A stretch of DNA of 12,742 nt, from positions 1-12,742 of the forward strand of contig JAJYJX010000060.1 of assembly GCA_021789095.1 (NCBI GenBank), read 5' to 3'. This DNA comes from a bacterium (GTDB lineage Bacteria; JAMCPX01). The stretch's first letter is position 1; each line of letters starts with the position of its first letter. The position numbers and the translations under genes were made by a program. A model generated the notes under the pieces. That model ran no database searches. It had not been told where the DNA came from and saw only the letters and a program-made list of their open reading frames with translations. Below are positions 3,185 through 12,257 of this stretch, one piece after another.

Positions 3185-4280
3185 CTATCCCTTTGCCCAT
3201 CTGTTCAGTTCTATCGGGATCAGGTAATAAGGCAGGACACGGTCTATCTTTCCTGTCGCTATTGCCTCCTTTGGCATGCCAAAGATAACGGAAGTCTCCT
3301 CCGATTCCGCTATTGTATACCCGCCTGTATCTTTTATAGCCTCTATGCCCTTCTTGCCGTCATCGCCCATACCTGTAAGCACAACCCCTGCACACATTCT
3401 GCCGAATTCCTGTGCAGCAGAGATGAACATCTCATTCACGGAGGGGATGAACTTGTCCCGCTCCCTGCGCGGTATAAGGTTCAGTATCCTTTTGCCATCA
3501 GCGCTTTGTATAGTTACACTGTAGCCGCCCGGACATACAAAGACAGTCCCCTGACTCAGGGCGTCCCCGTGCTCCGCCTCCTTTACATTGAAACCGGTGT
3601 ATTTGTTCAGCCTCTGGGCAAATGTATTCGTGAAGCCCGGCGGCATGTGTTGTGATATTATTATGCTGACCTTAAGATTTTTATCCAATCCGGCTATTAT
3701 TCTCTGCAGTGCAGAAAGGCCCGCCTGTGGATGAACCAATGGCTATGAGCTTGAATCCCGTATAAACACTTTCCCGGACCCTGTCCGCGCCGGTAACTTT
3801 CACTATAGGCTTTACCGAGGTATCAACCCCAAGGTTGAGTTTTATAGTTATGTCCGCTATCCTCCTCTGGACATTTTTCAGATTGATAGTACGTACATGG
3901 AGGACCTTCTTTATAACATCCTCTTTTATGGAATAAAGTTCCATGGATGCCTTTTTCACGGGCTTGGGGATAAAATCTACAGCTCCCATCTCCATTGCTT
4001 TGAACACGCTTTCCGAATCGGCCTTTGAGCTGATGACAATAGTCGGCGTCGGCCTTGTCCGCATGAGTATTCTCAGGAATGTAAAGCCGTCCATCCTGGG
4101 CATTTCAAGATCCAGTGTTATAACGTCAGGCAAGAGCTCGTTTACTTTCTTTAATCCGTCCTCGCCGTCTGTAGCTGTACCGATTACCTTGATGCCGCTG
4201 TTCGATTCGAGCATACTTTTGAATGATCTCCTGTTAAATGCTGAATCATCTATTATAAGGACCTTTACCTTCTCACTCAT
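3185..4280 (-). pseudogene. cheB: Chemotaxis response regulator / protein-glutamate methylesterase CheB, interrupted by a one-base frameshift
   Basis: CheB removes methyl groups from MCP glutamates (and deamidates glutamines) when its receiver domain is phosphorylated by CheA. The first frame (3681-4280) gives the receiver, with DD at 11-12, phosphoacceptor D57 in TLDLEMPRMDG and K106 in FIPKP. A linker and the catalytic nucleophile motif GSSTGGP (S184 by position) follow. It then runs into unrelated codons and a stop. The rest of the methylesterase continues in another frame (3185 to about 3739) with ALQRIIAGL, QHMPPGFT (catalytic His) and GMGDDG (catalytic Asp). Dropping one T from the TTT run (AAA on the plus strand, 3715-3717) restores STGGPSALQRI and a 364-residue protein of normal length. 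The ATG overlaps the cheR stop by four bases (ATGA). The break is probably a sequence error or a recent mutation; the domains are otherwise intact. Confidence 0.9.
3715..3717 (-). other. Site of the cheB frameshift (extra base in a 3-base homopolymer)
   Basis: On the coding strand the sequence reads GGC GGG CCT TTC TGC, whereas the expected reading is GGC GGG CCT TCT GCA (Gly-Gly-Pro-Ser-Ala). One surplus T in the TTT run accounts for the whole shift. No stop codon or obviously rare codon sits at the slip point, which argues against programmed frameshifting. Confidence 0.85.
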
Positions 4281-5164
4281 TTTGACGGCTTCCTGTAAAC
4301 GAGATCGTTTTTGAGCTGGATAAGTTTGAACATGCTTGTAACATTTATCAAAGACTCTGCATGTCCAAGCAACAGCCAGCCGTTGTTGTTCAGTTTTTCA
4401 TAGAACCTTTCGGTGAGTTTTCTTTTCGATTCCTGATCAAAATATATAAGTACGTTACGGCATATAATTACATCCATCGAAGAAAGGAGATTCATGACGG
4501 TGCTGTCCATAAGGTTTATGTGTGAAATCTTTACCATATTCTTGATTTCGTCTTTTATCCTGAACTTGTCTCCGTGTGGTTCGAAATACTTTTTTTTGTA
4601 ATAATCGTCGGTTACCCTGAAAGATGAACTTCCGTATATGCCTTTGCGTGATATCGTAAGTACCCTCTGACTTATATCTGTTGCATGTATCTCGAGGTTG
4701 AAATCCTTGTCCGTTCCCTGCTCCTTCGCCATGATCGCTATGGTATAAGCTTCTTCGCCCGTTGACGAACCCGCACTCCATATGCGCAGGGAGGGTTTCG
4801 GGATGTAAGACTTCTCATCCTTTATTGTCGGAACAATCTCTTCAAACAGTGCTTTCAGCTGCAGTATCTCCCGGAAAAAATATGTCTCGTTCGTTGTAAG
4901 AAGATCAACGACTATACTTAATTCTTCCTCTTTTTCCTGATCATACTTAAGGAAGAAATAATAATCCCTGAAAGAATTAAGCTTTCTGGCAGTCAGCCTG
5001 CCGGTAAGCCTTGATACAAATATGTATTTCTGGTCATCGGAAAAATATATGCCGCTGTATTCTTTTATAAAATCCCTGAGCCTCTGAAAGTCTTCATCCT
5101 CAAGGACAACCGTATTGTTATTATGCGTAAGCGTGCTGTTGTAGATACTATCGTTTATCTTCAC
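4277..5164 (-). CDS. cheR: Chemotaxis protein methyltransferase CheR
   Basis: SAM-dependent enzyme that methylates specific glutamates on the cytoplasmic arms of MCPs, opposing CheB. The product is 295 aa. The N-terminal helical CheR_N domain (about 20-85) leads into TTNETYFFRE (90-99). The SAM-binding loop WSAGSSTGEE (129-138) has Ser where many family members have Cys, followed by HATDIS (160-165) and CRNVLIYFD (235-243), all in family order. There is no TPR extension and no obvious receptor pentapeptide partner. The start is GTG (5162-5164), 17 bases inside the end of the HEAT-repeat gene, with AAGGAAG ten bases upstream. The first 20 residues are Asn/Thr-rich and not conserved. The stop overlaps the cheB start, so the pair is translationally coupled. 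Confidence 0.96.
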   Translation of the reverse strand: MKINDSIYNSTLTHNNNTVVLEDEDFQRLRDFIKEYSGIYFSDDQKYIFVSRLTGRLTARKLNSFRDYYFFLKYDQEKEEELSIVVDLLTTNETYFFREILQLKALFEEIVPTIKDEKSYIPKPSLRIWSAGSSTGEEAYTIAIMAKEQGTDKDFNLEIHATDISQRVLTISRKGIYGSSSFRVTDDYYKKKYFEPHGDKFRIKDEIKNMVKISHINLMDSTVMNLLSSMDVIICRNVLIYFDQESKRKLTERFYEKLNNNGWLLLGHAESLINVTSMFKLIQLKNDLVYRKPSK

Positions 5165-7094
5165 TGTGATCGTACTTCCTTAGTAAGGATAAAGCCCTCC
5201 CCTTGATCCCGGGGTTCCGGCTTAAATCAAGGCTTCGCAGAATACGGTAAGCCGTATCACTGTTTGTCCTGCCAATCATGTGTATTACTTCCGTTACAAT
5301 ATCACCGTCTTCGCTCGACAAAACCTTTTCTATTTCATCCGTACAGTTATCAACCGATATATCCATGAGCGTCTGAAGTGCTGTCAGCTTTACGGCAGGG
5401 AATTCATCATCCGTGTATTTTTTTAAGATCCCGATCGCCTCGCTTGTTTGCGGAGAATCTTTCAGGTGCTTGACAATCTCCACCCTGACCCATGGATCTT
5501 CGTCATGTATAAGCCACTTGATTATATCTATAAATCTTTCCGGTTCAATGGAGAAAATAGCCCTTATTGCTTCTATTCTCACGTCCCTGCTTTCATCCGC
5601 CAGGGCCATCTGAACATCCTCGAGGGACGCATTGAGTTTTAGAGTACCTATTGTCGATATTACTGCCGCACGGACAGAGGCTTCACTGTCGTTCATAAGT
5701 GTCTTTATGTCCGCATCCATCTGTTCCCTGTAAAAGCTGGCAATCAGCCTTGCCGATGACAGCCTCAGCAGATAATCATTGCTGTGTATCATGCCGCGTA
5801 TGATATCTGCAGCAGGGATAGTCAGGTGTCTGCCCACTTTTATAAAGTTTTCGACAGCAGCATTGTCTACATCCTTATTGTCCGAAGTCATGAGCTTGAC
5901 CAGAAGCTTCAGACTGTGTTCCTCGATATGCTTTCCGAGTGTATGCGCAAGAAGAACGAGTATGTCCTGTGAATCCTCGAAGTTGAGCAGGTACGATAAT
6001 CCATCAGGCGGGGGGGCTTTCATGTCAGGCAGCTGGGATAGATATCTGAGCCCTGCCTTTATCTGTGCTTCACTTTTGTTACCTACAATCAATCCAACGA
6101 CATCGGTTCTTACAGGTTCCCCCATATCAATCAATGCTGACACGCTTGCATCCGCAGTATCGGGATCATCCGCGTATCTGAATATCACCTCTATACTGCT
6201 TTTTATGCCCGACCAGCCCATGATCCTGATTCCCGCTGTTATAACGGACCGGTCTACGCTCGACAGCATCTTGCCCACAATGTATGACTCATATATGCCC
6301 GACCGCATTACGGCATTTTGTATATAGGATTTGCCGTCAGCGTCCACGCTGTTGTACAGCTGTAGTAAAGACTTTGCGGCGGAATCCCTGTTTGATCTTT
6401 TATTGTCCCTGACCCCGTCCAGAAGGTAGGAAACAACCGTGGGATCGTGCGTTGAACCCAGCAGATCAAATACTGCCTTTTTCAGCAACGGATCATCCAT
6501 GAGTGATATTATATTTTTGATCGGCAGCTTGAATCCCTTCCTGCCGAGATTGGCAAGAGCCTCAAGGGTGGAGAACACAATATAGATTTCCCTTTTTTCC
6601 AGGAGCTCGCTGAGATGAGGAATGGTGTCCTCTGTACCAAGCTTGCCCAATGCTTCCACTGCTGCTGTCGATAAATTCTGCTGTGCACTGTGAGTAAGCT
6701 CAATGAGCAACTCTATGGCCCTTGTATCGCCTATGTCGCCAAGCACGTCAACAAGGAGTTTTGACAGTTCCCATTGTTCTGCATCAATAGCATTCAAGAT
6801 CTTTTCGACTGCTTTTGGCCCGCTCCTTGTCAGCCCTTCAACGCCTGCTGTTCTGAGCCCTGCGTTGTCCTGGGCATTGATTATATCTATAAACAAATCC
6901 GTAAGCTTATCTGACTGGTGTGCTTTTAACAGCGCTTCAAGGGCCGTTTTTCTTACTCTGAAGCTTTCGTCACCAAGCAGCAGTTTAAACAGTGCGATGT
7001 TCCCCTCAAAGGGCAGTTTCTCGATCTCTTCCGCAGCATGAAGCCTCTCCTCTTCGGTCATATGCATTATTTCGTCTGTCCTGTTTACCATCAT
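5148..7094 (-). CDS. Large HEAT-repeat protein of the che operon
   Basis: A 648-residue all-helical protein built of HEAT (PBS-lyase-like) repeats from about residue 30 to the end. Typical units include LLLGDESFRVRKTALEALLK near 38-57, LSTAAVEALGKLG near 141-153, and a regular run in the C-terminal third (SEASVRAAVISTIGTL, SRDVRIEAIRAIF, EDPWVRVEIVKHL, EFPAVKLTALQTLMD). There is no signal peptide, membrane segment or catalytic motif. Such solenoids serve as protein-binding scaffolds, so it may tether array proteins, the neighbouring ATPase or the zinc-ribbon protein; this is inference. It overlaps the upstream zinc-ribbon gene by four bases (ATGA) and cheR by 17, which makes it an integral part of the operon. 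A second ATG follows the first directly, so the exact start may be one codon later. Confidence 0.9.
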   Translation of the reverse strand: MMVNRTDEIMHMTEEERLHAAEEIEKLPFEGNIALFKLLLGDESFRVRKTALEALLKAHQSDKLTDLFIDIINAQDNAGLRTAGVEGLTRSGPKAVEKILNAIDAEQWELSKLLVDVLGDIGDTRAIELLIELTHSAQQNLSTAAVEALGKLGTEDTIPHLSELLEKREIYIVFSTLEALANLGRKGFKLPIKNIISLMDDPLLKKAVFDLLGSTHDPTVVSYLLDGVRDNKRSNRDSAAKSLLQLYNSVDADGKSYIQNAVMRSGIYESYIVGKMLSSVDRSVITAGIRIMGWSGIKSSIEVIFRYADDPDTADASVSALIDMGEPVRTDVVGLIVGNKSEAQIKAGLRYLSQLPDMKAPPPDGLSYLLNFEDSQDILVLLAHTLGKHIEEHSLKLLVKLMTSDNKDVDNAAVENFIKVGRHLTIPAADIIRGMIHSNDYLLRLSSARLIASFYREQMDADIKTLMNDSEASVRAAVISTIGTLKLNASLEDVQMALADESRDVRIEAIRAIFSIEPERFIDIIKWLIHDEDPWVRVEIVKHLKDSPQTSEAIGILKKYTDDEFPAVKLTALQTLMDISVDNCTDEIEKVLSSEDGDIVTEVIHMIGRTNSDTAYRILRSLDLSRNPGIKGRALSLLRKYDHSEDKR

Positions 7095-8017
7095 GCCACC
7101 CCGAATTCTTTTTTCTTTTTTGCTATTAACTCATTCATGGATTCGGTCAGATAATCGGCCTTCTGTCGTATATATTCAGGTACTCTCTTGATAAACAGCC
7201 GCCTCCCTTCTTCGAGATCGTTTTTCAGCTCCTCTTCGATATTGCCCTGCCTTATTCCCTTTTCAAGGAGTTCCTGGTTGTAAAGTGCGATGTCAGAAAT
7301 GATAATACGCGCTAGTCTCTTCGCCTTTTCGATGTCTTGCGTATCAGCCGTTGTATGTACGAGTTCCTCTTCTTTGAGTTTCCTTGCATCTTCGGCTGCT
7401 ACTTTGGGCGCAACAATTCCCTTGACGCCAATGCCGACCTGCACGGCTGCTGCCTGTTTGGGTGTCACCTTTATTTCTTCCTGATTACCCAGCAGGCTGT
7501 TTATTTTCGGCACCAGACTGTCGCGTATTCTGTGCTTTTCTATAAAATCGTCTGCACCGTACAGACTCTGTGGCAGGCGTTTGTACCTTGTTTGATCGTA
7601 TATGGATGCAATAAGTATGACTTTTATATCCTCGAGCCTCTTATCCTTCTTTATGATTTCCGGGAATTCAAAGCCGAATATATCCTGCAGTGCGACATCC
7701 ACAACGACAACCTCCGGATGCATATCAGCCATTACCGAGAGAGCTTCAACGCCGTTCTTGGCGTACAGCGGCAGGAATCCTGCTCCTTTTAAAAGTTCCC
7801 CTATCATTTCCCTTATCGAGCTCGACGAATGCGCTATGAGTATTTTCTTGCCGGCCGCCATAACAGGGAGGCCCGGGACTTCTTTTTTGGCAGGCACCTT
7901 TTTCTTAAGGAGAAAAATCTTCCCGCACTTTCTGCACTTCAGTTTTAAACTATCCCCGGAAAGCTTATCCTCGGATATCCTGTATCTTGTGGAACATTTG
8001 GGACAGGCTATTATCAT
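7091..8017 (-). CDS. Zinc-ribbon / degenerate receiver-domain protein
   Basis: A 308-residue protein with three parts. Residues 1-35 are an MJ0042-type zinc ribbon with CPKC (5-8) and CRKC (28-31). Residues about 57-175 resemble a response-regulator receiver: VVVVDV places D107 as the phosphoacceptor and DDFIEK places K161. However, the acidic pair expected after the first strand is replaced by A62-H63-S64, so Mg2+ binding and phosphorylation are doubtful. After an Ala/Lys-rich linker, residues about 225-305 form a charged helical segment (KAKRLARIIISDIALYNQ onward). I recall similar segments at the ends of other zinc-ribbon proteins in deltaproteobacteria-like genomes. There is no DNA-binding output domain and no membrane segment. 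It lies eight bases after the MCP stop and overlaps the HEAT gene. It could be an array adaptor or output protein. Confidence 0.86.
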   Translation of the reverse strand: MIIACPKCSTRYRISEDKLSGDSLKLKCRKCGKIFLLKKKVPAKKEVPGLPVMAAGKKILIAHSSSSIREMIGELLKGAGFLPLYAKNGVEALSVMADMHPEVVVVDVALQDIFGFEFPEIIKKDKRLEDIKVILIASIYDQTRYKRLPQSLYGADDFIEKHRIRDSLVPKINSLLGNQEEIKVTPKQAAAVQVGIGVKGIVAPKVAAEDARKLKEEELVHTTADTQDIEKAKRLARIIISDIALYNQELLEKGIRQGNIEEELKNDLEEGRRLFIKRVPEYIRQKADYLTESMNELIAKKKKEFGVA

Positions 8018-8025
8018 GCTCGGAC

Positions 8026-10140
8026 CTAAACCTTGAACATCCTCAATATATCCTGAAGAACTTTTGATTGCTTATCAAGCGATTTCGAGACATCGTTAAG
8101 CTGTGAAACGCTTTGCAGATTTTCGCTGGACGATGTCTTGATCCTGCCCAAAGATGTCACAACAAATTCGTTTGTTCTTGCCTGTTCCTGCGTTGCCTTG
8201 TTTATAAAGTTTACCATCTCTGATATGTTCTCTATCGCCTGGCTTATAAATTTAGAGCTCTTGGACTGTTCTTCCGTGGAGTTCCTTACCTGCTCCGAGA
8301 CACTTCTCATCCTCTCCGCCGCCTTCGTTATCTGCTCCGACCCTCTGGCCTGTTCCTGCGTTGCCTTTGCTATCTCCACCATCATGGTCGTTATATTCGT
8401 TATCGCATCGGTTACCTCCCTGGATGCCTTAGTCTGATCCTGCGTTGCTTTTGCTATTTCACCCGCCATAAGGCTTGATTGTGATGAACTTTCAGATATC
8501 TTCAGCAGGACCGCACCAGCAGTATTTGCAAGTTCGCTTCCCTTTTCAACTGTTTCACTTCCTGAGACAACGGATTCCCTTGCCTGAATGGATTCTGCCT
8601 GGACAGCCCTTATAATATTTGTTATCTCTTTCGTTGACGCTGCTGTCCTTTCTGCAAGTTCCTTAATCTCGTCGGCAACGACTGCAAAACTTTTACCGTA
8701 CTCGCCCGACTGCGACGCTATAATGGCGGCGTTCAGGGCAAGCAGATTGGTCTGGGCCGTCACCTCCTCTATAACATTCAGTATCTTCCCTATTTCATCA
8801 ACCTTCTGTACAAAGCTTCCTATTGTTTCTGCAACACGGTTTGAAGCTTCCCTGATCTGCTTCATGCCGTCTATTGTGGTGTTAACGGCTGCAACCCCTT
8901 CCTTTGCGTCACTCATAACCCTATTTGCAATGTTTAAAGTCTTATTTGCGTTTGCCTCTATCTGTTTTGTTGATGCGTCCATCTCGACTATGGAAGTTGC
9001 TGTCTCATCGGTTATCTTAAGAAGTTGATCCACATTTGATGCAACCTGTTTTATCGATGCACTCATCTCTTCTATTGAAGAAGTCGTTTCCTCTATGGCC
9101 GAGGACAACATTTCAACATTCTCAAGTACCTCTTCTATGCTCGACGACAGTTCCAGTACGGAAGACGCACTCTCTGTCGATGAAGTATGAAGTGTATCGG
9201 TATTCTTTGCTATGTCTTTTATCGATGCATTAAGCTCCGTCATTGATGATGATGTATCTTCCACGGATTTTTCCTGTATCTCTGAGGATTCCAGAAGCTT
9301 TGAGGAATTGCTTGTTATCTTCTGTACAACATCTACGATCGCCTCAGACGTTGTCCTTACATTGCCCAGTACCTTTCTCAAACTGGCCGACATGGCATTA
9401 AATGAATCTGCAAGCATGCCGACTTCGTCCTTGGACTGAGAAGTCACGGTCTGAGTGAGATCACCTTCGGCAAGTGCCGATGCTTTCTCGGCTATCATGG
9501 GAATCTGTCCTACTATCCTCTGGGCAAACACAAGGGTCATCAAGGCCCCGACAAAAAAGATTATCAGCACGATTAAAACAGCTCCCAGTATAATTGATGT
9601 AAATTTCTTTGATATGCTTTTCAGGGTCATCCCTATATACACGTGTCCCCTTACAACATTTGCCTGCTCAACAACACCCTGGACGTTGATTTGGGAGGTT
9701 GACGTAACAACATTCTTGTTGATCGCTATGAATTCGCCCGCTGAACCGAGTTTGATTGCAGACGTCTTGTCTTGGGGGGTTGCAAGTATTGTACTTATAC
9801 GGTCCGAAATGCCCTGCGCCCTGAACCTTGACACCAGCACATTATCTTTCGTGTCTGTAACCACCGCATATTCTATGTCCTTGTCCTTGAAGACGTTGTC
9901 CATAAGTTCATTCAGCAAAACCTTATCCTCTGCGATAACTCCGAACCTTATATTGTATGCAAAATCCTCGGCTATTACATTCCCTCTTTTTTCAAGCTCA
10001 TCCGTAAATATGGACCTGGCCAATAAGAGGTAATATACACTGTAAATGGCACTGAGCGCTATGATGCCTATTATTATATAAATAATAAATTTAAGCCTGA
10101 GGCCGTGCCTTATATTTTGCAATTCTCCTATAAATTTCAT
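8026..10140 (-). CDS. Methyl-accepting chemotaxis protein with a long cytoplasmic hairpin
   Basis: Membrane chemoreceptor of 704 aa. TM1 is at about 16-40, followed by an extracytoplasmic sensor of about 140 residues (41-181) that may be a single-Cache/PAS-like fold. TM2 is at about 182-206, HAMP at about 207-258, then a coiled-coil signalling hairpin to the C-terminus. The tip is recognised by QTNLLALNAAI...SGEYGKSFAVVADEI (463-492). By alignment to Tsr the turn falls at E480, leaving about 221 and 224 residues in the two arms, roughly 32 heptads each. Both arms contain four tandem 28-residue repeats (about 297-408 and 561-672). There is no C-terminal CheR-docking pentapeptide. The start is the ATG at 10140, preceded by GGAGG; it overlaps the cheW stop as TGATG. 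A TTG one codon earlier is less likely. It probably feeds CheA through the two CheWs encoded upstream. Confidence 0.95.
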   Translation of the reverse strand: MKFIGELQNIRHGLRLKFIIYIIIGIIALSAIYSVYYLLLARSIFTDELEKRGNVIAEDFAYNIRFGVIAEDKVLLNELMDNVFKDKDIEYAVVTDTKDNVLVSRFRAQGISDRISTILATPQDKTSAIKLGSAGEFIAINKNVVTSTSQINVQGVVEQANVVRGHVYIGMTLKSISKKFTSIILGAVLIVLIIFFVGALMTLVFAQRIVGQIPMIAEKASALAEGDLTQTVTSQSKDEVGMLADSFNAMSASLRKVLGNVRTTSEAIVDVVQKITSNSSKLLESSEIQEKSVEDTSSSMTELNASIKDIAKNTDTLHTSSTESASSVLELSSSIEEVLENVEMLSSAIEETTSSIEEMSASIKQVASNVDQLLKITDETATSIVEMDASTKQIEANANKTLNIANRVMSDAKEGVAAVNTTIDGMKQIREASNRVAETIGSFVQKVDEIGKILNVIEEVTAQTNLLALNAAIIASQSGEYGKSFAVVADEIKELAERTAASTKEITNIIRAVQAESIQARESVVSGSETVEKGSELANTAGAVLLKISESSSQSSLMAGEIAKATQDQTKASREVTDAITNITTMMVEIAKATQEQARGSEQITKAAERMRSVSEQVRNSTEEQSKSSKFISQAIENISEMVNFINKATQEQARTNEFVVTSLGRIKTSSSENLQSVSQLNDVSKSLDKQSKVLQDILRMFKV

Positions 10141-10685
10141 CAATCGCCTCCTGGTTTTTGCTTTTTGTCTTTAAAAATAAGATTTTTGAATTGAACCCTT
10201 TCCGTGGTTGTCAATATTCTATCCAGGTCCAGGACAAGTATTATCCTGCCTTTGTCGCTGACAACGCTTGATAAATATTCCGACTCTATGCCCTGTACTA
10301 TCTTCGGCGGCGGCATAACCTTCCCCCTCGGTATCTTTAAGACCTCCTTCACTTCATCAACAATAAGACCGACTATCTTATCAACAACTTTTATGATAAC
10401 TATCCTGATTTTTTCGTTTTGTTTTTCTCTCATATTTTCAGGCTGGATCTCGAATCTCTTTCTCATATCTATCACGGGTATAATCGCGCCTCTCAAGTCT
10501 ATAACGCCTTCAAGGAACTCCGGCGCCCTAGGCACTCTTGTTACCGGTATATATTTAACAATCTCAACTATTTTCATAATATCAATGGCATAAAATGAGC
10601 TGCCTATCCTTATGAGGATAAGCTGAACATCGCCCTGGGCCGGTGATACATCTTTATTTACTCTTTGGGTGCTTTGTTTTGTCAT
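10140..10685 (-). CDS. cheW: CheW coupling protein (compact copy)
   Basis: A 181-residue single-domain CheW that links receptors to CheA. After a short polar leader (1-18) the CheW fold runs from VQLILIRIGSSFYAIDI to about 160. The conserved core is PVTRVP (47-52), FLEGVIDLRGAIIPVIDMRKRF (58-79, with the LRG arginine R65) and GLIVDEV (106-112). A lysine-rich C-terminal tail (about 165-181) is an unusual extra. The ATG lies five bases after the upstream cheW stop with only a weak AAGG, so re-initiation is likely. The stop overlaps the MCP ATG by one base. This copy differs strongly from its neighbour and is not a recent duplicate. Confidence 0.95.
   Translation of the reverse strand: MTKQSTQRVNKDVSPAQGDVQLILIRIGSSFYAIDIMKIVEIVKYIPVTRVPRAPEFLEGVIDLRGAIIPVIDMRKRFEIQPENMREKQNEKIRIVIIKVVDKIVGLIVDEVKEVLKIPRGKVMPPPKIVQGIESEYLSSVVSDKGRIILVLDLDRILTTTERVQFKNLIFKDKKQKPGGD
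10147..10151 (-). promoter_or_regulatory. Shine-Dalgarno of the MCP gene
   Basis: GGAGG on the minus strand lies six bases before the ATG at 10140, inside the last codons of the compact cheW. It favours the ATG over the TTG at 10143 and, with the TGATG stop/start overlap, points to coupled translation of CheW and the receptor. Confidence 0.75.
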
Positions 10686-10690
10686 ACTAT

Positions 10691-11446
10691 TCAGACCTTA
10701 AGCATATCGGATTGCTTGAGTATTTCTTCCAGCTTTAACAGGATCGTGAATCCTCCATTGCTTGTACTGATACCTGCAACAAACTTTATATCCACATTGC
10801 TGACAAGCTCTGCTGATTGTATTGATTCAGCAAGAACCTTCTTTACCATAGGTATGCTGTCAACAACCAGTCCCGTCATTGTATCTTCAAAAGAAACCAT
10901 AATAAATCTGGTATCCTGGGTAAAATTAAGAAACGGCAGTCCTATGCGCTTCCTTAAATCTACAATGGGTATAATCTCACCGCGAAGTACTATTATGCCA
11001 AGAACAAAGTCCGATGTATTCGGCACCGGGGTTATTTCTTTTACCCTTATAATTTCTTTTACAACATTGAGTTCTATAGCATACTCTTCCTCTTCCAGGG
11101 TAAAGCAAAGGAGTTCTTTTTCTCTTGTTTCTGCCGGGTATTTTTTCAATTCCTCTACGGCAAGTTCCGCAAAAGGCTTCCCCTCCGCTGCGTGACCTCC
11201 GCTTTCCGGTGCTCCGGCGCCGGCCCGGGTGTCCTGGATACCGGTTGCCGGTTCCTCGCCTCTGACTTCCGGCATGGGTACTCGCACAGAAGGTCCGGGA
11301 GTCTGGATCTGCTGCCCGGAGTCTGGTGCCTTAAGTACAGTGTCAAAAGTTTGTTTGTCCGGAGTCTGCTGTTTGCTCTCTGCAGCTTTCTGCTTTGCGC
11401 CTGCCTGCTGTTCTTTTGCTTTTTTTCTCAGTTTTGAAATATCCAT
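10691..11446 (-). CDS. cheW: CheW coupling protein with a long low-complexity N-terminal extension
   Basis: A 251-residue protein whose CheW domain occupies about 108-248: ELLCFTLEEEEYAIEL, then EITPVPN (137-143), FVLGIIVLRGEIIPIVDLRKRIG (147-169, LRG arginine R155) and GLVVDSI (192-198). The first about 105 residues are disordered-looking. They start basic and Gln/Lys/Ala-rich (MDISKLRKKAKEQQAGAKQK), then become Pro/Gly/Glu-rich. The DNA of this extension is clearly more GC-rich than its surroundings and contains short direct repeats. The extension may be a tether or interaction tail; no known motif is seen. The start lies one base after the ATPase stop and lacks a strong Shine-Dalgarno, so coupling to upstream translation is likely. 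Confidence 0.94.
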   Translation of the reverse strand: MDISKLRKKAKEQQAGAKQKAAESKQQTPDKQTFDTVLKAPDSGQQIQTPGPSVRVPMPEVRGEEPATGIQDTRAGAGAPESGGHAAEGKPFAELAVEELKKYPAETREKELLCFTLEEEEYAIELNVVKEIIRVKEITPVPNTSDFVLGIIVLRGEIIPIVDLRKRIGLPFLNFTQDTRFIMVSFEDTMTGLVVDSIPMVKKVLAESIQSAELVSNVDIKFVAGISTSNGGFTILLKLEEILKQSDMLKV

Positions 11447-11447
11447 A

Positions 11448-12257
11448 TTATGTTAAACTTATTTTTATGTCCTCTATGATAGCGTTTATTGCGCTGTCAT
11501 CTATAATGCCGAGATCTTCTCCGTAACCGTACAGCAGCGCATTGTTGCAAATGGTGTTTATCGTTCTTGGTATGCCGTGCGAATACCTGTAGATCAATTC
11601 TATTGCAGGTCCGGTGAACAACGGTTCTGTCCTGCCCGCCACCTGAAGCCTGAAATTAATGTATTTCCCGGTATCCTCCATGCTGAGAGGCCCGAGGTGA
11701 TATGACATCCCGATCCTCTGCCTGAATGCATTGTAATACCTTGATCCCAGCCTGTCCCTGAATTCTGTCTGGCCTATAAGGATAATCGTGATCAGGTTCA
11801 TGTTGTCAAGCTGGTAGTTTGTCAGAAGCCTGATCTCGTCTATCGTACTCTTTGACGGGATTAACTGCGCTTCATCAACAAATACAACGGGGGAGACATG
11901 CTCTTCGTACAAACTTGCTATTCTTTCGCTCATCTGCTCTACTATATCATTCTTGAAGTATTTCACATCTTCTATGCCAAGCCGTTTTGCAATAGTCTTG
12001 AGAAACTGTGTGGGGGAAAGCCTTGGATTTATAATGTTGATGATCACATAGTTTTCATCCAGGGAATCCATGGCAGACCTTGATATTGTTGTCTTGCCTG
12101 AGCCGATGTCCCCTGTCAGCACTGCCAGTTCTTTCTCCTGGATTGCAAAAAGTATACGTTCAAGGGCTTCCTCATGCTGGCGGGACTTGTAGAGGTATTT
12201 GGGATCCGGTGTTTTACCGAACGGTTTTTCGTTTAATCCATAGAATTTTTCGTACAT
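11448..12257 (-). CDS. ExeA/GspA-type AAA+ ATPase inside the che operon
   Basis: A 269-residue P-loop ATPase. The N-terminus MYEKFYGLNEKPFGKTPDPKY is the hallmark of the ExeA/GspA/MshM family. Walker A is GDIGSGKT (49-56), Walker B VVFVDEAQ (124-131), a sensor 1-like region IGQTEF (161-166), and sensor 2 GIPR (228-231). The protein ends after the AAA+ lid; it lacks the membrane segment and peptidoglycan-binding domain found in full-length ExeA, so it should be cytoplasmic. Known relatives help assemble type II secretion, MSHA-type pili or exopolysaccharide machinery. Here the gene lies two bases after the cheA stop and one base before cheW, so it is a core operon member. A role in array placement or in driving an envelope/pilus output is inference. 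The family call is firm; the function is not. Confidence 0.93.
   Translation of the reverse strand: MYEKFYGLNEKPFGKTPDPKYLYKSRQHEEALERILFAIQEKELAVLTGDIGSGKTTISRSAMDSLDENYVIINIINPRLSPTQFLKTIAKRLGIEDVKYFKNDIVEQMSERIASLYEEHVSPVVFVDEAQLIPSKSTIDEIRLLTNYQLDNMNLITIILIGQTEFRDRLGSRYYNAFRQRIGMSYHLGPLSMEDTGKYINFRLQVAGRTEPLFTGPAIELIYRYSHGIPRTINTICNNALLYGYGEDLGIIDDSAINAIIEDIKISLT

Follow-up and report, generated by a model that had tools for sequence, protein, structure and literature searches.

A soluble AAA+ ATPase related to GspA/ExeA is a recurrent member of chemosensory operons and is commonly encoded next to a CheW with a conserved N-terminal head

Introduction

Chemosensory arrays are usually described as being built by receptors, CheA and CheW alone, and in some species they are placed by ATPases of the ParA family. 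ParC is one such protein, a ParA/MinD-type ATPase. The array protein ParP has an N-terminus on a long proline-rich linker that binds ParC, and a CheW-like domain that enters the arrays (PMC5706961). TnsB attaches to TnsC by a 15-residue tail that is carried on a non-conserved linker (PMC9371665). The ATPase domain of ExeA is needed for the complex of this protein with ExeB (PMC4098917), and GspA proteins without the periplasmic part also exist (PMC9239104).

Here we describe an AAA+ ATPase related to GspA/ExeA that is encoded within a chemosensory (che) operon. In the literature searched, which lay mostly outside subscription journals, we found no che operon reported to include an AAA+ or ExeA/GspA ATPase, and the main text of a paper on the Geobacter che clusters mentions no ATPase, HEAT or secretion-pathway protein. 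The stretch of DNA analysed (the window) is one entire contig of 12,742 nucleotides, C194 of genome G000.

Results

The ATPase gene lies between cheA and a cheW gene

An earlier note on this DNA, made from its sequence alone, had described a secretion- or pilus-type ATPase tightly wedged between cheA and cheW. The ORF coordinates (Table 1) bear out this spacing, as the ATPase gene starts 2 nt past the stop of the cheA fragment and ends 1 nt before the ATG of a gene for a CheW with a distinctive N-terminus, hereafter the headed CheW. The identity of the upstream neighbour as cheA also held, with the qualification that the contig contains only the last 160 aa; in relatives the CheA at the same place is complete, with Hpt, dimerisation, HATPase and CheW domains. 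With this CheA and with CheW, MCP, CheR and CheB, the locus has the composition of a Che system. The HEAT-repeat protein is present in most of the long Nitrospirota operons examined, and the zinc-ribbon/receiver protein is kept in the window's family and in genomes G047, G061 and G062.

CheB is split in the window between overlapping receiver (3681-4280) and methylesterase (3185-3739) ORFs, and is a single intact ORF in relatives L091, L094 and L095; the split may be an assembly error or a real frameshift. The hairpin tip of the MCP reads NAAIIASQSGEYGKSFAVVADEI in place of the usual AAIEAARAGE, with 11 occurrences across the window and the loci of its family and varied tips elsewhere. Relative L094 encodes a 652-aa SMC/RecN-like AAA protein (14701-16659) upstream of its PATAN gene.

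Table 1. Features of the chemosensory locus, in coordinates of the window
Feature	Position	Strand	Basis or remark
AAA+ ATPase, 269 aa, soluble, che-linked clade	11448..12257	(-)	ORF, ATG start; Pfam AAA_22
Walker A, residues 49-56 (GDIGSGKT)	12090..12113	(-)	G49/G52/G54-K55-T56 conserved
Walker B region (VFVDEAQ), D128-E129	11865..11888	(-)	Conserved throughout
Q180-R181, putative arginine finger	11715..11720	(-)	Conserved throughout; role predicted from the AAA+ fold
Sensor 2, residues 228-234 (GIPRTIN)	11556..11576	(-)	G228, P230, R231, I233, N234 conserved
cheA, last 160 aa only (contig end)	12260..12742	(-)	ORF and profile matches
Headed CheW: head, ~95-aa variable linker, CheW domain	10691..11446	(-)	Pfam CheW, residues 111-245
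Head motif, residues 1-12 (MDISKLRKKAKE), candidate ATPase docking peptide	11411..11446	(-)	Conservation, co-occurrence with ATPase
Second CheW, headless	10140..10685	(-)	Pfam CheW, 122 bits
Chemoreceptor (MCP, HAMP)	8026..10143	(-)	Pfam
Zinc-ribbon and receiver-domain protein	7091..8017	(-)	Pfam
HEAT-repeat protein	5148..7094	(-)	Pfam
CheR	4277..5164	(-)	Pfam
CheB, two frames here (receiver, methylesterase ORFs)	3185..4280	(-)	ORFs, Pfam

The arrangement recurs in at least six phylum-level groups

The same gene order was found in seven other genomes of the window's family, and the arrangement is also present in the candidate-phylum genomes G022, G047, G051 and G056. G051 has two separate che operons (L096 and L099), each with an ATPase and a headed CheW. 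Phylum searches around the candidate-phylum genomes showed these to be small separate groups, that of G047 adding the linked genomes G061 and G062. When a profile of twelve linked ATPases was run against 395 Nitrospirota genomes, it gave 93 matches. All 92 matches above 340 bits lie directly after CheA, so that 92 of the 395 genomes have the arrangement; a match at 289 bits is not linked to CheA, and other relatives (266 bits or less) are likewise unlinked. A wider sample of 386 genomes gave the same picture, with every match above 328 bits linked and those at 296 bits or less, for which flanks were read, unlinked; it added the linked genomes G517, G548, G559, G651, G683, G715, G759 and G777. 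The arrangement therefore spans Nitrospirota and at least five other phylum-level groups, and the genome search for an ATPase near cheA proposed in the earlier note has found the neighbourhood to recur. A chance or contig-specific neighbourhood is ruled out by this recurrence in the family, in Nitrospirota and in other phylum-level groups.

The genes of CheA and the ATPase overlap at 63 of 108 measured junctions. Upstream, in the 51 Nitrospirota loci with enough flanking sequence, CheY is encoded in 49 and a PATAN (DUF4388)-receiver protein in 40. In many bacteria that bear pili and often have no flagella, the ATPase gene is a constant part of a chemotaxis-type operon.

The linked ATPases form their own clade

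The linked ATPases occupy one side of a single branch in a tree with 81 rows (bootstrap/SH-aLRT 95/90), and this branch is present in 98% of bootstrap trees. On addition of Aeromonas ExeA, an EPS ExeA and a transposon ATPase the linked clade stays (89/72), and the transposon ATPase, on a long branch, adjoins it. E. coli GspA was left out as a reference because it is too divergent (branch length ~10). A scattered origin of the linkage to CheA is ruled out by the single clade in both trees. The question raised in the earlier note, whether linked copies form a clade apart from the secretion and EPS relatives, is thus answered in the affirmative; its label of a secretion- or pilus-type ATPase is right as to ancestry, but not as to placement, since the linked proteins are not found among the secretion and pilus ATPases.

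The linked ATPases are soluble AAA+ proteins with conserved catalytic motifs

Against Pfam the ATPase matches AAA_22 with 74 bits. The best NCBIfam model is TIGR03015 (XrtA/PEP-CTERM ATPase), which is matched over its full length at 235.8 bits, under its cut-off of 324.5. Alignment of 116 linked copies and ~90 unlinked relatives showed Walker A, Walker B, Q180-R181 and sensor 2 to be invariant or nearly so, in agreement with the earlier description of Walker A, Walker B and sensor 2 as intact; comparison of linked with unlinked copies also revealed clade-specific positions, including K15, D64, L132, P134, N154 and G183. With motifs, fold and lid all in place, the protein is an AAA+ ATPase by profile and predicted fold. 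One in-frame stop interrupts a few linked copies (G065:C50, G360:C149, G147:C232, G715:C17), which may mark pseudogenes, assembly errors or recoding.

An AlphaFold2 model of relative L036, in which the ATPase is read through into the headed CheW, has pLDDT >90 almost throughout the AAA+ part, and its nearest folds are Orc/Cdc6, MuB and TnsC (Z ~20-21 over 231-256 residues). A PDB search with the single ATPase sequence gave no match; a profile search reached MuB and TnsC. No homologue was found in phage records. The genes flanking the linked ATPases in the loci examined are che genes, with no transposase. On an Alicyclobacillus plasmid (L303) a homologue with 34% identity is flanked by genes for a DDE transposase and a DUF5348 protein, which indicates that the ATPase family also occurs with transposases.

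A C-terminal transmembrane segment was predicted in none of the 116 linked copies, as against 25 of 90 unlinked copies, and the tail past the AAA+ domain has a median of 5 aa in the 116 linked copies compared with 68 aa in unlinked ones. The linked proteins lack the C-terminal transmembrane segment and periplasmic peptidoglycan-binding region that define GspA/ExeA. The suggestion that a truncated form acts as a cytoplasmic partner thus holds in so far as the C-terminal membrane segment is absent throughout, but "truncated" is not apt, as an AAA-only length is normal for TIGR03015 (269 positions).

A conserved head on CheW is inherited together with the ATPase

In 102 of 107 linked loci the CheW encoded beside the ATPase begins with a head of consensus MD[IL]xx[IA]RKKAK; a linker that varies in length leads from it to the CheW domain, and the whole protein has 162-351 aa across loci. 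Among the 102 heads, D2 is conserved in 98%, R7 in 100%, K8 in 98% and K9 in 95%; no head could be recognised in G073, G083 and G092, the three linked Nitrospirota loci that diverge most. The AlphaFold2 model of the window's headed CheW alone has a helix at residues 3-24, a disordered linker and a CheW fold. By successive tens of residues, the pLDDT of the head is 59/80/52 in the L036 read-through of ATPase and CheW and 73/65 in CheW alone, so that the ATPase brings no clear gain in order to the head.

Of the 92 Nitrospirota genomes with the ATPase, 77 match a DNA pattern for the head, as do 16 of the 303 without it (Fisher p 5e-50, with kinship ignored); a reversed-pattern control also matches about a dozen or more genomes. 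Nine of the 16 ATPase-negative genomes with the pattern were examined, and in seven of these the match has no CheW domain. In G440 the ATPase gene is cut at a contig end, and G302 has a genuine headed CheW with no ATPase found in the genome. Seven genomes have a split operon, in which the ATPase is still beside CheA but the headed CheW is encoded in another che cluster, together with MCPs. The retention of both in these seven split operons shows co-inheritance of head and ATPase beyond plain linkage, with shared ancestry uncorrected. Taken as sequence evidence, the headed CheW points to CheW as the partner of the ATPase, and the head probably docks on it; such a basic head could instead bind DNA, membrane or CheA.

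The head resembles those of GspB proteins

A start of the type MS.I..ALKKAE.E was found on the gene after the ATPase in 22 of 74 unlinked cases, compared with 26 of 2299 background ORFs, a set that includes the same ORFs. Aeromonas ExeA is followed by MSTLLKALRRAD. This ExeA is a 547-aa ORF with a peptidoglycan-binding-like end, and MSTLLKALRRADQ comes next, in the place of ExeB. Scored on a profile of GspB heads, the che heads were separated from ORF N-termini with an AUC of 0.96, and 9% of composition-preserving shuffles reached the median che score. By this measure the che head resembles the heads of GspB proteins, a likeness that may or may not reflect common descent.

Other proteins of 250-330 aa encoded next to GspA-type ATPases (L050, L085, L068), perhaps polysaccharide kinases, likewise begin with GspB-type heads (MSKIYEALKKAEKER). 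After the unlinked sister ATPases L294, L295, L298, L300 and L217, the next protein has another short motif at its N-terminus (MVRITDIL..., MLKLSQVIKKGL...) together with a low-complexity stretch; these motifs perhaps follow the same docking logic with other partners. The window's genome itself has a second copy of the ATPase, in an EPS/XrtA-like cluster.

Genomes with the arrangement often lack FlhA

FlhA was found in 13 of the 51 genomes with the ATPase and in 22 of the 29 without it (p 2e-5, among related genomes and with kinship ignored). PilT was present in all 51 ATPase-positive genomes tested, and PilT-family matches were present in all 80 genomes sampled, so that the presence of PilT alone says little. 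In the window's genome and seven other members of its family FlhA was not found and PilT was present. PilT, the frequent absence of FlhA and the PATAN-receiver neighbours together suggest that the output is non-flagellar, and that the che system bearing the ATPase probably has a pilus-based output.

Discussion

These data suggest that an ATPase and its adaptor have been added as a module to a chemosensory system, as an ATP-driven part of sensory arrays of which we found no description in the papers searched. We regard it as an evenly balanced proposition that the soluble AAA+ ATPase is a dedicated chemosensory component which, with the headed CheW as its partner, gathers, positions or remodels arrays. 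The headed CheW would be the adaptor, with its N-terminal head docking on the ATPase and its CheW domain, to judge from the normal CheW fold, entering the CheA-receptor array. Oligomerisation of the ATPase under the control of ATP could then gather, position or remodel arrays, and ATP binding and hydrolysis would control their clustering, place or turnover, in a mode analogous to that of ExeA with ExeB, TnsC with the TnsB hook and ParC with ParP. From the array, CheY and the PATAN(DUF4388)-receiver proteins would carry the signal to an output other than flagella, for which type IV pili are the likeliest candidate.

A broader reading, which we put forward tentatively and consider somewhat doubtful, concerns the origin of this module. 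A GspA/GspB-type ATPase and head peptide may have moved from the assembly of envelope machines to arrays, with the head grafted onto CheW; an AAA+ rather than a ParA-type ATPase would then assemble or position the CheA-receptor array by type IV pili in a widespread class of chemosensory systems, and GspB, possibly kinases, and CheW would all use the head as a general code for docking on this ATPase family.

By our own weighing there are two main rivals to the array component. In one, which we think unlikely, the ATPase would be a regulator of kinase activity, bound to CheA or to the headed CheW and serving as a sensor of ATP state or a remodeller, with no role in siting arrays. The closest linkage of the ATPase is indeed to CheA, with overlapping genes at the majority of junctions, and in split operons it remains by CheA while the headed CheW moves off; but the conserved head is on CheW, not on CheA. 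Ranked just below it, and likewise unlikely, is an output effector that keeps the GspA-type job of assembling a pilus, secretin or polysaccharide-export machine, here under Che control. This would suit the named relatives, which sit with T2SS or EPS genes, the second copy of the window's genome and the presence of PilT in all 51 genomes tested; but in the loci examined the linked ATPase is always by CheA and usually by a headed CheW, none of its 116 copies has the C-terminal membrane region, and CheW occupies the partner position. We give little credence to a third possibility, that the ATPase binds DNA in the manner of MuB, TnsC and Orc and ties arrays to the nucleoid: the nearest solved folds are DNA-binding AAA+ proteins and some relatives are transposon-encoded, but the ExeA branch acts at the membrane and the window's receptor has a HAMP domain and a predicted membrane region. 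A hitch-hiking gene without a signalling role is very improbable, as the general caution that operons may hold unrelated genes is set against an own clade that spans at least six phylum-level groups and is co-inherited with the CheW head in trans.

If the array component is the correct reading, array biology would gain an ATP-driven step, through an AAA+ ATPase with a dedicated CheW adaptor in at least six phylum-level groups. Assembly ATPases would moreover be seen to be re-used by exchanging what lies behind a docking peptide, and a testable partner and motif become available for lineages whose surface behaviour is hardly known.

Of the systems already described, GspA/ExeA with GspB/ExeB shares a homologous AAA+ domain (the linked ATPase is ~40% identical to that of Aeromonas ExeA); in both, the next gene downstream encodes a partner whose short N-terminal head is rich in KK/RR. 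The linked ATPase differs from GspA/ExeA in having no membrane segment and no peptidase-like or peptidoglycan-binding region, in being encoded in a che operon and in forming a separate clade, and its partner, unlike GspB/ExeB, is a soluble CheW; the GspAs without a periplasmic part sit with gspB, unlike the che-linked proteins. The XrtA/PEP-CTERM ATPase (TIGR03015) is the best named model, matched over its full length and with the same AAA-only length, but the context of the linked copies is che in every linked locus and not EPS/XrtA. TnsC and MuB are among the nearest solved folds (Z ~20), and the short terminal peptide of TnsB, carried on a non-conserved linker (PMC9371665), is arranged much as the head is on the headed CheW; yet TnsC and MuB are only 13-18% identical to the linked ATPase, act on DNA and have no che linkage. 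ParC-ParP, which positions polar arrays in Vibrio, likewise has genes for an NTPase and a CheW-like adaptor within a che operon, and ParP, like the headed CheW, has an N-terminal binding region, a long linker and a CheW-like domain (PMC5706961), whereas the linked ATPase is AAA+ by profile and fold and has no sequence relation to ParC. The Pil-Chp and PATAN-receiver systems have the same CheA, CheW, MCP, CheY, CheR, CheB and PATAN-receiver proteins in genomes with PilT, to which the operons described here add the AAA+ ATPase, the headed CheW and the HEAT and zinc-ribbon/receiver proteins.
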